Assembly (NCBI RefSeq): GCF_902506165.1 | Contig: NZ_LR733817.1 | Span: 1,348,255-1,412,254, forward strand | Direction of reading: 5' to 3' | Length of the DNA: 64,000 bases | Origin: Bosea sp. 29B | GTDB lineage: Bacteria; Pseudomonadota; Alphaproteobacteria; Rhizobiales; Beijerinckiaceae | Shown here: one piece after another, positions 20,104-34,891 of the stretch | Numbering within the stretch: position 1 is the stretch's first letter | How the letters are laid out: each line of letters opens with the position of its first letter | Position numbers and translations under genes: made by a program | The notes under the pieces: model-generated | Database searches by the model: none | Seen by the model: the letters and a program-made list of their open reading frames with translations, nothing else | What the model was told of the DNA's origin: nothing

Positions 20104-20225
20104 CAAATCGCCGCCATTTGTTTAAAAGAGCTACTGGGCATTGAGCCATGCCTACAACGGGTCGGTAAAGGACATTGTAGAAGGCTGCCTTTGAGACCAG
20201 ATTGTTCGCTTCATATCTGGCTGCC

Positions 20226-20825
20226 ATGGAGCCTGAGTTGAGCCGTCATCTGTGGGTAAATCTACGAGCAGCACTCGTCGGCGCGGTGGCGCTCGCGCTT
20301 GCAGGCGATGCGCAATGCGTCGAAGCGATCCATAGAATCGACTTGCCGCTCCCCACGGAATTTCGCGAGCGAGCGGCAACCATATTGAGCGAGCTTCGGC
20401 CAGCCGACTTTCAGAACGCGCTGCAAAATACAAAAGCTCGCTGGTTGCAGGGGCCGGTTGAAGGCGAAACTTTAATTATCTTGCGCATCGAACAGGCCTG
20501 TTTCAATTCGGGCTGCATGACAATTCTCGGCCGCATGACGGCTGCTGGAATAAAGCCCGATTTGGTCATGGAGGCAGGCAAATCGTTCCGCGTTTTAGAT
20601 ACGTCGATCGCCAGCTTTTGGGGGCAGACCGCATCCCCGCTGTTGGTATTTCAGACGGATGCTGGTCCCGGCCTCGCCGTCGCCGTTCGAGCAAACGGCT
20701 CGGTGGTGACTGCCTGCAACTGCGCCAACTGGGCGGAAGCGCCCCAAGCACCACCACCGCCCGCCGACTTACCCAAACTAAGCTTCGAAGATTTCACGCG
20801 TGCTCTGGAGCGCATCCATAAGTGA
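20226..20825 (+). CDS. Hypothetical protein, probably exported
   Basis: A 199-residue protein with an N-terminal hydrophobic stretch (AALVGAVALALAGDAQC) that could be a signal peptide or anchor, several Cys residues (EQACFNSGCM, ACNCANW), and a Pro-rich C-terminal segment (APQAPPPPADLP). No family recognised. ATG 20226 is the first Met; an upstream TTG at 20202 is in frame. Base composition is lower in G+C than the core genes. Confidence 0.45.
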   Translation: MEPELSRHLWVNLRAALVGAVALALAGDAQCVEAIHRIDLPLPTEFRERAATILSELRPADFQNALQNTKARWLQGPVEGETLIILRIEQACFNSGCMTILGRMTAAGIKPDLVMEAGKSFRVLDTSIASFWGQTASPLLVFQTDAGPGLAVAVRANGSVVTACNCANWAEAPQAPPPPADLPKLSFEDFTRALERIHK

Positions 20826-20914: not shown

Positions 20915-21433
20915 TCAGCGACGCTCAGTCCGTGTGATCCCGCACTTGGTGATCGACCGCTGCTGCAAAACATTGACCGCTACGTTCGGCCGCAACTCGT
21001 AGAACGACAGCGTCCGATAGCTCCAAGCGTAAGGCACGCAGTTCTTAAGCGCCACCGTGTGCAAGAAAAATTGAAACTCCGCAGGAGCCTCTCGAATGGA
21101 CGCGAAGAAGCTATGTTCTTCGACCTCCTCTGCACCAAATGCGAGAACAGAACGATGCCTGACGCTGTCGGCATAAACCCCTACAATTGCGGTTGGCAGG
21201 AGCACCGCCAAGATTGTGAAGACAGGCAGCCGCAGTACTGGGCTGATCCTAGTTCTCAGCGGGGTAGCGAAGATCAGAGCCGAGGCTGCCATGCAGAGGA
21301 GGGCAATCATCCTCCAATAGGGAAGTCCTAGCCGATCAGACCAGATTGTCGCCAAGGCAAGCGCGTGCGATGGGTCGCCGAAAAGGATCGCTGTCGCCGC
21401 GCAAAAAGCGACGGCGCTGAGGAACAGCTTCAT
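20915..21433 (-). CDS. Hypothetical membrane protein
   Basis: A 172-residue protein with three likely transmembrane helices in the first 95 residues (LFLSAVAFCAATAILFG; WRMIALLCMAASALIFA; LPVFTILAVLLPTAIVGVY) and a soluble C-terminal domain. No family recognised. ATG 21433 has no strong ribosome-binding site; a TTG three codons upstream is the alternative. Divergent from the argC leader. Confidence 0.45.
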   Translation of the reverse strand: MKLFLSAVAFCAATAILFGDPSHALALATIWSDRLGLPYWRMIALLCMAASALIFATPLRTRISPVLRLPVFTILAVLLPTAIVGVYADSVRHRSVLAFGAEEVEEHSFFASIREAPAEFQFFLHTVALKNCVPYAWSYRTLSFYELRPNVAVNVLQQRSITKCGITRTERR

Positions 21434-21546
21434 TGCAAGCAACAGGGTGCCTCGCTGTGTGGATTTTTAGGGAGTGATGTCTAGCAAGGAGCGCTATGGA
21501 GTTCACTAGCCCCGCGTCCGCTAAGGGCCGGTAGCAGACATTACGC

Positions 21547-21552
21547 TTGACG
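21547..21552 (+). promoter_or_regulatory. Possible -35 element of the argC leader transcript
   Basis: TTGACG matches the -35 consensus in five of six bases. No convincing -10 follows at 16-18 bases (best is CAGTGT), so this is a weak call. Confidence 0.25.
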
Positions 21553-21583
21553 ACGACTATCGGTGCCGACAGTGTCGCAGGGC

Positions 21584-21679
21584 ATGCTCAGGAACCGGAC
21601 CATTTGCGACCGACGCCGACGCCGCTTCATCCGAGCGGCGGCTTCTTGGCTGCGCGTCGATCAGCGTCCTTCCGCGTGA
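21584..21679 (+). CDS. Candidate arginine-rich leader peptide upstream of argC
   Basis: A 31-codon reading frame with ATG at 21584 and TGA at 21677. Ten codons are Arg, five of them consecutive (codons 10-14, CGA CGC CGA CGC CGC, 21611-21625). It is followed by a strong intrinsic terminator and then argC. A hairpin (CGCCGCT 21620-21626 with AGCGGCG 21634-21640) lies within the Arg run. This is the layout expected for ribosome-mediated attenuation of an arginine biosynthesis gene. The ribosome-binding site is weak (AGGG very close to the ATG); GTG 21572 is an alternative start in frame. Not proven to be translated. Confidence 0.45.
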   Translation: MLRNRTICDRRRRRFIRAAASWLRVDQRPSA

Positions 21680-21727
21680 AGGCCTCACCATAGGCCACAG
21701 CCGAAGCGACTTCGACCCGCGTTCCTG

Positions 21728-21763
21728 AACCCCCGCAGCCCTCGGCTCCGGGGGTTTTCTTTT
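21728..21763 (+). terminator. Intrinsic terminator in the argC leader (candidate attenuator)
   Basis: AACCCCCG (21728-21735) pairs with CGGGGGTT (21749-21756). An inner AGCC/GGCT stem and a CTC loop extend it, and TTCTTTT follows. It reads toward argC, whose ATG is 28 bases on. No other plus-strand gene lies upstream for it to end, which supports a regulatory role. Its 5' arm includes CGCAGCC (21734-21740), which is complementary to GGCTGCG at 21648-21654 in the leader frame, a possible antiterminator. Confidence 0.65.
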
Positions 21764-21790
21764 GCCCGCCCCCCCAAAGAGGACACCATC

Positions 21791-22765
21791 ATGAGCATTC
21801 GCGTCGGCATTGTCGGCATCAGCGGTTTTGGCGGCGGCGAGGCGCTGCGCCTGATCGCGAGCCACCCGTCTTTCGAGCTGGTCTACGCCGCCGGCGAGAG
21901 CAGCGCCGGCAGCCGTCTGGTCGACCGCTTCCCCGGTGTGCCGGCCAAGCTGGCCGAACTGGTCATCGAGAAATGGGACCCTGCGGCCCTGCCGAAGCTC
22001 GACCTGCTGTTCGCGTCGCTGCCCACGGGCGCCTCGGCCGAAGCGCTGGCTCGCGTTCCCAGGCACGTGAAGATCGTCGATATCGGCGGCGACCACCGCT
22101 ATGTCGACGGCTGGGCCTATGGCCTCGCCGATATCTGGCCGGCCCAGATCGAAGGTCAGACCCGCATCGCCAATCCCGGCTGCTTCCCGGCCGCGACGCT
22201 GACCGCACTGGCGCCCCTGCTGGCCGGCAAGCTGATCGAGCCCGGCAACATCGTGATCGACGTCAAGACCGGCATCTCCGGTGCCGGCCGCGGCGGCGAC
22301 AGCAAGTTCGGCTATGCCGAGAGCAACGAGAACCTGGTGCCCTACGGCCTGCTCAGGCACACCCACATGCCCGAGATCGCCAGCACGATCGAGCGGCTGA
22401 GCGGCGGCAGCGCGGCCGGGCTGGTGTTCACGCCGCATCTGGTGCCGATGACCCGCGGCATCCTCGCCACCATCTATTGCCGCGGGCGCGCCACCACGGA
22501 GCAGTGCCTTGACGCAGCACGGCGCTTCTACGCCGGGCGCTCCTTCGTCCGCGTGACCGACAGGCCGCCGCAGACCAAATGGGCGACCGGCTCGAACCTC
22601 GCCTTCGTCAGCTATGCGGCCGATCCGGAGCGCAACCTGGTGATCGCGATGGGCGTGGTCGACAATCTCGGCAAGGGGGCGGCAGGCCAGGCGGTGCAGA
22701 ACGCGAACCTGATCTGCGGCCTGCCGGAAACCGCGGGGTTGGACGGCGCACCCATCTGGCCGTGA
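21791..22765 (+). CDS. argC: N-acetyl-gamma-glutamyl-phosphate reductase
   Basis: NADPH-dependent reduction of N-acetyl-glutamyl phosphate, third step of arginine synthesis. The 324-residue protein has the N-terminal nucleotide-binding GIVGISGFGGGEALRL and the catalytic Cys131 in ANPGCFPAAT. Further on come the HTHMPEI and FTPHLVPMTRGI segments with active-site His residues, and a C-terminal DNLGKGAAGQAVQN. AAAGAGGA lies upstream of ATG 21791. It stands alone, not next to rpsI as in many relatives. Its upstream region carries an apparent Arg attenuator. Confidence 0.95.
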   Translation: MSIRVGIVGISGFGGGEALRLIASHPSFELVYAAGESSAGSRLVDRFPGVPAKLAELVIEKWDPAALPKLDLLFASLPTGASAEALARVPRHVKIVDIGGDHRYVDGWAYGLADIWPAQIEGQTRIANPGCFPAATLTALAPLLAGKLIEPGNIVIDVKTGISGAGRGGDSKFGYAESNENLVPYGLLRHTHMPEIASTIERLSGGSAAGLVFTPHLVPMTRGILATIYCRGRATTEQCLDAARRFYAGRSFVRVTDRPPQTKWATGSNLAFVSYAADPERNLVIAMGVVDNLGKGAAGQAVQNANLICGLPETAGLDGAPIWP

Positions 22766-32581: not shown

Positions 32582-32643
32582 CCGCTCGCGAGGGTGAACG
32601 GGCGAATTGACGCTGCCGCATTTCCGCCCTACTCGTGAACGCG

Positions 32644-32812
32644 ACGGTTCCCTCACGGGATCAAAAGGGAACGCAGTGCGGATGGCTCGGCCATCTCATG
32701 CTGCGGCTGCCCCCGCAACTGTAAGCGGCGAGCCTTTCGCCATACGCCACTGGGACCTCGGCCCTGGGAAGGCGGCGAAGGGCAGCGACCCGCGAGCCAG
32801 GAGACCTGCCGT
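32644..32812 (+). ncRNA. Cobalamin (AdoCbl) riboswitch
   Basis: Conserved blocks occur in the known order: AAAAGGGAACGCAGTGCGG, GCTGCCCCCGCAACTGTAAG, GCCACTGGGA, and the B12 box AGCCAGGAGACCTGCC (32795-32810). With cobalamin bound it is expected to block expression of the btu operon. It lies about 135 bases upstream of btuB. The 366 bases between the GntR gene and btuB hold only this element. Confidence 0.95.
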
Positions 32813-32947
32813 CAGCCGTGGTCACACGCGAACACATCGGCCGGGGTGCGCTGATGGGTGGTAGAACTGCGCGCGCCCGGTTTCGGGAGTGGGTGGGGAC
32901 ATCTCGTTCGCGGTGACGTGCCACTGACGTTACCGCCGAGGTTTCCC

Positions 32948-34891
32948 GTGTTCCGTTTGCCAAAGCCCGCCAAGAGCGGGCATTCGCCCCTTGCCCTCTC
33001 CCTGCTCGCCGCCTCGACCATGTTGATATCGCTCTCTGCACTGGCGCAATCGGGCGAGAAGCCGATCGCGCTCGACGAGATCGTCATCAGCCCGACCGGC
33101 GTTCCGACCCCGGCCAGGGAGATCGCCAGCTCTGTCACCGTCGTCACCGCCAAGGAGATCGAGCGCCAGCAGCGCCGTACCTTGCCGCAGGCGCTCGCCG
33201 CCGTGCCCGGCCTCAACCTCGTCCAGACTGGCGGCCCGGGCGGGCTGACCTCGGTCTTCATGCGCGGCACCAACTCGAACCACGTCAAGGTGCTGATCGA
33301 CGGCATAGAGGTGAACGACCCCTCGACGCCGAACCGTTCCTTCGATTTCGGCCAGATGCTCACCACCGACATCGAGCGGATCGAGGTGCTGCGCGGCCCG
33401 CAGAGCGGCCTCTATGGCGCCAACGCGCTCGGCGGCGTCATCTCGATCACCAGCAAGCGCGGCGAGGGCCCGCCCAAGGTGACGGGCTCGGTCGAGGCGG
33501 GCTCCTACGGCACCTTCAACCAGAGCGTCGGGCTGAGCGGCGGCAATGACCGCTTCGACTACGCCTTCAACGTCAGCCATTTCCGCTCGGATTCGACCCC
33601 GGTGACGCCGCCGAACTTGGTTCCCGCCGGCCGCCGGCGTAACCCGAGCTCCTACGACAACTGGAGCTATTCCGCCCGCCTCGGCGCCAGGCTGACCGAC
33701 ACGCTGAGCGTCAACTGGGTCGGCCGCTATATCGACGGGCAATTGCTGTTCACCGGCGATTCCGGCTTTCCGAGCCTGCCGAACAGCTTCCGCTCGAGCC
33801 AGAACTACCGCCAGGCCTTCACCCGCGGCGAGATCGTCTGGGATCCCTTCGAGGGCCGTTTCGTCAACCGCTTCGGCGTCTCCTACAGCAATCAGGACCG
33901 CTCGAACCGCACAGCCAACGCGGCAGGCATCCTCGGCCTGCCGACCGAGAACCTCGGCGAACGCACCAAATACGACTGGCGCGGCGACCTGAAGCTCACC
34001 CAGAGCCAGACGCTGGTGATGGGCCTGCAATATGAGAACGAGCGCTTCGACACCTCCGCCAAGACCGTTTCGAACGGCAATAGAGGCGCCTTCGTCGAAT
34101 TGCAGTCGAACTGGACCGACCGCTTCTTCACCGTCGCCAATATCCGCTACGATGACGACGACAAGTTCGGCGGCCACACCACCTATCGCATCGCACCGGT
34201 CTTCATCGTGCCAGGCACCGACACCAAGCTGAAGGCGAGCTACGGCACCGGCTTCAAGGCGCCGACGCTGAGCGAGCGCTTCAGCGATTCACGCCCGGCC
34301 TTCAACTTCTACGGCAACCCCGATCTGAAGCCAGAGGAAAGCCGCGGCTGGGATGTCGGCTTCGAGCAGCCGCTGCTGAACGGGCAAGTCAATTTCGGCG
34401 CGACCTGGTTCCACAACGACATCGACAACCTGATCCTGACCAACGCCACGCGCACCTCCTATACGAACATCGGCCGCGCCACGACCAAGGGCGTCGAGGC
34501 CTTTGCGGCGCTCGAACTGACGCCGCAGTTCAAGGTCCGGGCCGACTATACCTTCACCCTCGCCAAGGACGAGACTGCGCGCCAGGAGCTGCTGCGCCGG
34601 CCGCGCCACAAAGCGAGCGTCACTGCGAGCTGGATGCCGATCGAGAAGCTGACGCTGTCGGCGACGCTGGTCTATGTCGGCGCTCGCATGGACGGGAACC
34701 GCGACTTCTCGATCTCCAGGATGCGAGCGCCAGGCGCCGCGATCATCAACCTCGCCGCAGACTACAAGGTCGACGAGAGACTCACCGTGTTCGGCCGCGT
34801 CGATAACCTGTTCGACAAGCGCTACGAGAACCCTGTCGGCTTCCTGGTGCCGGGCCTCAGCGCCTTCGGCGGGATCAGGGTGAGCCTGTGA
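32948..34891 (+). CDS. btuB: TonB-dependent vitamin B12 receptor
   Basis: A 647-residue outer-membrane receptor. A signal peptide (LALSLLAASTMLISLSALA) is followed by a TonB-box-like DEIVISPTG and a plug domain (SSVTVVTAKEIERQQRRTLP, RIEVLRGPQSGLYGANALGG). A long beta barrel ends in GGIRVSL. Riboswitch control and the following B12 ABC transporter genes identify it as BtuB. GTG 32948 with GAGG six bases upstream was chosen; the longer frame from 32858 would put residues before a normal signal peptide. It overlaps btuF by four bases. Confidence 0.92.
   Translation: MFRLPKPAKSGHSPLALSLLAASTMLISLSALAQSGEKPIALDEIVISPTGVPTPAREIASSVTVVTAKEIERQQRRTLPQALAAVPGLNLVQTGGPGGLTSVFMRGTNSNHVKVLIDGIEVNDPSTPNRSFDFGQMLTTDIERIEVLRGPQSGLYGANALGGVISITSKRGEGPPKVTGSVEAGSYGTFNQSVGLSGGNDRFDYAFNVSHFRSDSTPVTPPNLVPAGRRRNPSSYDNWSYSARLGARLTDTLSVNWVGRYIDGQLLFTGDSGFPSLPNSFRSSQNYRQAFTRGEIVWDPFEGRFVNRFGVSYSNQDRSNRTANAAGILGLPTENLGERTKYDWRGDLKLTQSQTLVMGLQYENERFDTSAKTVSNGNRGAFVELQSNWTDRFFTVANIRYDDDDKFGGHTTYRIAPVFIVPGTDTKLKASYGTGFKAPTLSERFSDSRPAFNFYGNPDLKPEESRGWDVGFEQPLLNGQVNFGATWFHNDIDNLILTNATRTSYTNIGRATTKGVEAFAALELTPQFKVRADYTFTLAKDETARQELLRRPRHKASVTASWMPIEKLTLSATLVYVGARMDGNRDFSISRMRAPGAAIINLAADYKVDERLTVFGRVDNLFDKRYENPVGFLVPGLSAFGGIRVSL

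Follow-up and report, generated by a model that had tools for sequence, protein, structure and literature searches.

Why does a short reading frame crowded with arginine codons, followed by a transcription terminator, stand directly in front of a gene for arginine biosynthesis? This arrangement is found on the plus strand of Bosea sp. 29B, in a 64,000-nucleotide stretch of its genome (hereafter, the window). The locus is very probably a ribosome-mediated transcription attenuator, which would sense charged arginyl-tRNA and thereby control an accessory argC gene.

The leader frame (21584–21679) comprises 31 codons from the ATG at 21584 to the TGA at 21677–21679, and its predicted product is MLRNRTICDRRRRRFIRAAASWLRVDQRPSA. 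Ten of the codons specify arginine, and five of these follow one another at 21611–21625 (CGA CGC CGA CGC CGC), a run referred to below as segment 1. Further downstream, both the sequence and a terminator scan reveal an intrinsic terminator (21727–21763) with the arms GAACCCCCG (21727–21735) and CGGGGGTTT (21749–21757), separated by a loop and followed by a T-rich tract up to 21763. Its stem is paired in 100% of the cells of an alignment of 59 leaders, all of which were selected for possessing a terminator. A gap of 27 bases separates it from the argC start codon at 21791. The sequence-only reading of this DNA had already described the ten arginine codons, five of them consecutive, and had placed the terminator at 21728–21763; both observations are borne out, the latter to within about one base.

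The terminator might instead belong to a transcript from further upstream or to a small RNA, with the arginine run being a by-product of a GC-rich CGACGC repeat kept for RNA pairing. This explanation is improbable. An upstream transcript could come from the closest plus-strand ORF of gene size (20202–20825, 207 aa), as listed mechanically, and, as a hint of a small RNA, a counter-transcribed RNA family of Rfam matches over the terminator at 20.6 bits, below its gathering score of 50 (E 0.05). The ORF, however, ends about 900 bases before the locus, and a minus-strand ORF (20915–21442) intervenes between it and the leader, in line with the earlier view that no other plus-strand gene could own the terminator. 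The idea that the terminator is a leftover of an upstream gene was dropped, as the ORF layout and the borders of the conserved block described below speak against it.

The argC gene of the window (21791–22765, plus strand) encodes a full-length N-acetyl-gamma-glutamyl-phosphate reductase, which matches TIGR01850 at 289.2 bits (cut-off 233.6). It is a second genomic copy; the main argC, a TIGR01851-type gene, is encoded on the same contig. Within the genus, argC of the window type is present in 10 of 25 genomes (including that of Bosea sp. 29B), and the leader occurs in those 10 and in none of the 15 others. A covariance model of the leader (R1) finds 28 copies in 27 of 67 genomes of the genus, and the same 27 genomes carry the accessory argC among the matches listed. 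The best 80 of 222 places with a relative, at 87–97% identity, are mostly in Alphaproteobacteria and some in Betaproteobacteria. For 35 of these 80 loci the genomes were compared, and 34 contain a second argC-like match. Plasmids of Methylobacterium, Agrobacterium, Roseomonas, Paracoccus and Paraburkholderia also carry the accessory gene, and the DNA similarity to a Methylobacterium aquaticum plasmid spans 21537–22765, which is a conserved block of promoter, leader and gene. Together, these three elements look like a horizontally moving cassette. One genome (G472) harbours two leader-argC copies (L043 and L076). Another (G398) holds one such copy (L127) and, in addition, a leader fused to a short piece of the argC 3' end in a different frame (L141), a deletion relic.

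How far the leader accompanies this gene was followed in 90 upstream regions, namely the window, 79 named loci, three plasmid loci and seven further loci of the genus, with some genomes represented twice. The terminator core is present in 65 of them; the other 25 are all named loci and include those of Betaproteobacteria (L051, L058, L061, L063, L086). In 64 of the 65 terminator-bearing loci, an ATG frame with adjacent arginine codons is found, and 63 have three or more such codons; the exceptions are L068, which lacks the ATG, and L032, which has just two arginine codons. The combination of leader and terminator thus exceeds chance. The plasmid copies of Paracoccus and Paraburkholderia have no leader, and the Agrobacterium copy has lost ten bases, with two arginine codons remaining. 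In several of the leader-less loci (among them L044, L050, L051, L052 and L061), the mobile argC is preceded by another conserved sequence, with variants of TTCGCTCACTCCAGCAGTAGGACACCACC immediately in front of the ATG.

An accessory cassette present in 27 of 67 genomes of the genus, the 25 copies out of 90 without a leader and the genome in which the leader is joined to an argC remnant (L141) would all be compatible with a decaying relic that travels on a mobile argC and has lost its regulatory role in this genome. That such a relic lies in the window is nevertheless unlikely, as every part is intact there and the ArgC protein is full length and above its family cut-off.

The alignment of 59 distinct leaders, trimmed to start at the ATG, distinguishes two types. 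Type A, with the consensus MLRNxxLCDRRRRR, occurs in Bosea, Methylobacterium, Reyranella, Vineibacter and others, while type B, with the consensus ...TANRRRRC, occurs in Roseomonas-like bacteria, one Asaia MAG and unclassified MAGs. Among the 46 distinct type A leaders, codons 10–12 specify arginine in all 46, codon 13 in 44 and codon 14 in 32. All ten distinct type B leaders have four arginine codons. Two leaders (L038 and L089) have six-base in-frame losses within the arginine run, and at codons 8 and 9 the third position varies by 39%, as against 2–20% at the first and second positions. The comparison of argC upstream regions, proposed with the sequence-only reading, thus finds both the arginine codons and the terminator conserved across Bosea, Methylobacterium, Reyranella, Vineibacter, Roseomonas-like bacteria and others; the lack of conservation that would have spoken against an attenuator was not observed.

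Could these codons nevertheless be a by-product of an RNA constraint? They overlap the paired segment 1, where such a constraint alone would preserve many of the bases, and the CGA CGC at codons 10–11 is invariant in type A (46/46). Yet both types retain arginine although their majority codons in the four shared positions of the run (CGC CGA CGC/CGT CGC in type A, CGA CGC CGT CGC in type B) differ solely at synonymous third positions. The ATG column is also kept in 64 of 65 alignment rows, as judged by eye, with a promoter element at a nearly fixed distance, and the main argC of the same genome shows the same predicted logic in an unrelated sequence. These observations speak against a mere by-product of RNA pairing.

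In the C-terminal half of the leader, the reading frame differs among relatives (the window, L037 and L039 as against L053 and L056), as would be expected if the arginine run were the leader's sole job. It may be asked whether the terminated leader RNA or the arginine-rich peptide works in trans, as is reported for rnTrpL and peTrpL of Sinorhizobium, with attenuation in cis being secondary or additional. A leaderless attenuator leader with trans products has a precedent (PMC10117765), and the N-terminal half MLRNxxLCDRRRRR is fairly conserved in type A. However, the shifting frame of the C-terminal half speaks against a functional peptide, and every strong full-length match to the leader model that could be placed precedes argC. 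A role in trans is very unlikely. The model R1 gives one strong match in the genome of Bosea sp. 29B. Across 385 genomes of the class, full-length strong matches occur in three (Bosea sp. 29B, G320 and G398), and G398 adds a match at its argC remnant (L141). Among weaker matches, inspection of L128–L132, L134, L135, L117 and L119 showed no such leader; L133, L136–L140, L118 and L120–L125 lie outside the inspected set.

The leader appears to have its own promoter. A −35-like TTGACG is located at 21547–21552, and 57 of 59 leaders have a TTGAC 35–38 nt upstream of their ATG, the distance being 37 nt in 46; L067 and L114 are the two without it. A weak −10-like CAGTGT (21570–21575) was recognised by eye from the sequence and the alignment; it is a poor −10, which a consensus promoter scan did not pick up. 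If used, it would set the transcript start at the ATG or a few bases before it. A Shine-Dalgarno-like word at the usual distance is found in 0 of 59 leaders, although in 10 such a word sits 8 nt or less from the ATG; the codon pattern is in keeping with putative translation of the leader. The distance of TTGAC from the ATG and the missing normal ribosome-binding sites imply that the leader is probably leaderless, with transcription starting at about the ATG. Such a start would also account for the poor ribosome-binding site that had been considered the weak point of the attenuator.

The proposed attenuator would operate as follows. Transcription would begin at the leader ATG or a few bases away from it, and ribosomes would translate the leader behind the RNA polymerase. 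With ample arginine, the ribosome would clear the arginine run, which could then pair with segment 2 to form hairpin 1:2. This would leave the 5' arm of the terminator free, so that the terminator forms and argC stays off. When arginine is short, the ribosome would stall on CGA CGC CGA CGC CGC and cover segment 1. Segment 2 (GCGGCGG) would then nucleate a long imperfect stem that sequesters the terminator arm and permits read-through into argC. As the leader stop codon is located beyond segment 2, hairpin 1:2, and not the terminating ribosome, would be expected to blank segment 2. In the tabulated leaders, the run consists of CGA, CGC and CGT only, and one tRNA with the anticodon ICG is expected to read all three. 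This restriction would make a sharp prediction of which tRNA is sensed.

The alternative pairings were computed for single sequences of the 59 distinct leaders, with the RNA cut before the 3' arm of the terminator is synthesised. Of the 59 free leaders, 48 have a minimum-energy fold in which at least four pairs join the arginine run to segment 2. In the window, this hairpin 1:2 joins CGCCGCT (21620–21626) to AGCGGCG (21634–21640), which is the hairpin over the arginine run noted previously (21620–21640); an alternative register, three columns away, could also form, with pairs in 95.7% of cells. The terminator arm is bound by segment 2 in just 1 of 59 free leaders, as against 49 of 59 when the arginine run is covered, and by a looser criterion the arm is taken up in 56 of 59 covered-run leaders. 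When the linker is shuffled, this uptake drops to 28% on average. The stalled fold is barely more stable than its shuffled-linker controls (mean z −0.64).

In the covered-run folds, the antiterminator is a single long imperfect stem, GCGGCGG...:...CCCCCGC plus an extension. Its 5' strand at 21635–21660 includes segment 2, and the end bases of its 3' strand at 21712–21736 are most of the 5' arm of the terminator. Applied to the alignment, the long stem is paired in 89.4% of cells, compared with 44–56% for slid versions, a figure favoured by the derivation of the structure from one member of the set (L076). Changes on both sides of a pair occur in 44 cells, whereas shuffles give 16.2, and none of 500 shuffles is as high. 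Covariation is weaker by two other counts, with 11 double-change pairs against 8.3 (46/500) and 44 pair types against 40.2 (26/500). Both sides have changed in all four pairs of columns 96–99:134–137, while the outer arms, which sequester the terminator, are for the most part unchanged or altered on one side. Hairpin 1:2 and the terminator hardly vary (98.3% of cells), and no covariation is seen in them. When strands are permuted between leaders, cognate combinations beat permuted ones across all leaders (14/20000), but within types this advantage is absent (type A, 1401/20000; type B, 16803/20000).

The sequence-only reading had suggested another antiterminator, formed by GGCTGCG (21648–21654) and CGCAGCC (21734–21740). 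Their complementarity is real and conserved (columns 66–72:183–189 of the consensus fold), and the consensus fold with the run covered prefers this pairing to the long stem. In the free RNA, the consensus fold shows it alongside hairpin 1:2, where it would already disturb the terminator. Single folds, by contrast, favour the longer stem. Among 56 leaders, GGCTGCG:CGCAGCC reaches 3 expected pairs in 11% when free, in 7–14% with a ribosome on codons 2–5 of the run and in 36% with a ribosome on codon 1; masking segment 2 raises this to 91%. On these percentages the pairing was demoted from main antiterminator to conserved alternative, and the folds suggest that the long stem probably acts as the antiterminator instead.

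The folds do not all agree. In full-length folds with the run covered, the terminator persists, in some cases together with a 2:3 hairpin, which implies that antitermination would have to be kinetic and depend on the order of folding. Attenuators generally depend on folding order. The consensus fold of the whole leader also contains a local 2:3 hairpin, which would reverse the logic of the switch. This hairpin was set aside, since it hardly forms in single folds of the cut RNA with the run covered, though it does appear in the full-length ones. The disagreement of the consensus and full-length folds with the single folds slightly lowers the confidence placed in the attenuator.

Other modes of control were sought as well. 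The arginine repressor family Arg_repressor (PF01316) was found in none of 41 genomes, including that of Bosea sp. 29B, compared with 9 of 14 control genomes (8 above the cut-off). A similar leader is absent before argG, argJ and carA of the Bosea genome, the genes covered by this check, which left out argB, argD, argF and argH. At the locus, neither a T-box nor any other Rfam family reaches its gathering score, with one sub-threshold match at E up to 1. Elsewhere in the window, a cobalamin riboswitch (RF00174, 124.5 bits) lies at 32630–32827, before an ORF resembling a TonB receptor (32858–34891); by eye, the ORFs that follow suggest an ABC transporter for a metal or for cobalamin.

The main argC of the same genome (ATG at C1:4824305) has an arginine-codon leader of its own. 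The frame MTTNPTRRRSEQAAPARPR begins at 4824091, directly after a TTGACA...ATAT promoter, and precedes a terminator CCGCGCC...GCGCGGTTTTTTT that ends at 4824203. Leaders of this form (M..RRR..AAPARPR; C1:4824091–4824203, L147 and L194; genus loci L168–L197) are carried by 27 of the 30 genus loci examined, and the remaining three have diverged leaders with two adjacent arginine codons. Folds of the 23 distinct leaders that match a strict pattern have the terminator arm paired to RNA upstream of it in 23 of 23 with a ribosome on the arginine run, in 0 of 23 with a ribosome at the stop codon and in 20 of 23 without a ribosome. The main argC would thus possess a second arginine attenuator, unrelated in sequence to the accessory one but with the same predicted logic.

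Beyond the genus, main argC leaders are of several kinds. Among 30 loci of the order, 28 of them readable, none has a leader of the genus type; L226, from another family, is alone in having an arginine-rich frame (MMTICAIRRDTCRRLRGAR) before a similar terminator at argC. The RRR frames in L199, L207 and L209 had the appearance of chance occurrences. Five of 20 further main argC upstream regions, from Enhydrobacter and four Reyranella (L148, L153, L155, L156, L164), share an arginine-rich ORF (..RSRRRR....) with a hairpin that, by eye, is without a T-run; it may act on translation or together with Rho. A related form, containing RR, occurs in L157. Taken together, the main argC leaders and the lack of an ArgR match in the 41 genomes speak for more than one origin of arginine attenuation at argC.

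Ribosome-mediated attenuators are known for the trp, his, leu, ilv, phe and thr leaders. The argC leader resembles them in its run of end-product codons within a short ORF, its mutually exclusive pairings and its intrinsic terminator before the gene. It differs in its presumed signal, arginine, in a long antiterminator spanning about 100 nt, in a stop codon past segment 2 and in its association with a mobile accessory gene. The fungal arginine attenuator peptide (CPA1/arg-2) shares its name and signal with the argC leader, but there, in a eukaryote, the peptide itself stalls translation when arginine is abundant, and transcription attenuation is absent.

Other bacterial parallels have been described. 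The trpL of Sinorhizobium meliloti is an alphaproteobacterial attenuator with a leaderless ORF, as predicted here, and trans roles of rnTrpL and peTrpL are reported (PMC10117765); it is, however, a tryptophan leader of trpE. In Salmonella, consecutive arginine codons in the speF leader orf34 sense arginine and control ornithine decarboxylase via Rho, an RNase G-sensitive structure and access to the ribosome-binding site (PMC6386406). Both leaders contain consecutive arginine codons, but the argC leader has an intrinsic terminator, which is not part of the mechanism reported for speF. The carA leader of Pseudomonas likewise combines a leader peptide with attenuation at an arginine-pathway gene, but the signal differs, as attenuation is ascribed to pyrimidines and arginine acts at the transcriptional level (PMC4997734). 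Searches of open-licence papers, with term look-ups in PMC2965389 and PMC1273637, showed no arginine attenuator at argC, which agrees with the earlier remark that no such case was known in Alphaproteobacteria. The kind of mechanism is familiar from other amino acids; within the scope of these searches, its putative use for arginine at argC appears to be new.

If the locus works as proposed, classical attenuation would also serve arginine, and it would have been built separately at two argC genes of one genome. The sensor would travel with the transferred argC, and a new host would need to supply only ribosomes and tRNA. To our knowledge, the control of arginine synthesis in Alphaproteobacteria without ArgR is not settled. 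It is reasonably likely that, in several such lineages, argC is placed under leader-peptide attenuators of multiple origin, with those at the two argC genes of this genus being unrelated, the mobile cassette carrying its sensor from host to host and the stop codon of the main argC leader parking the ribosome on the antiterminator.
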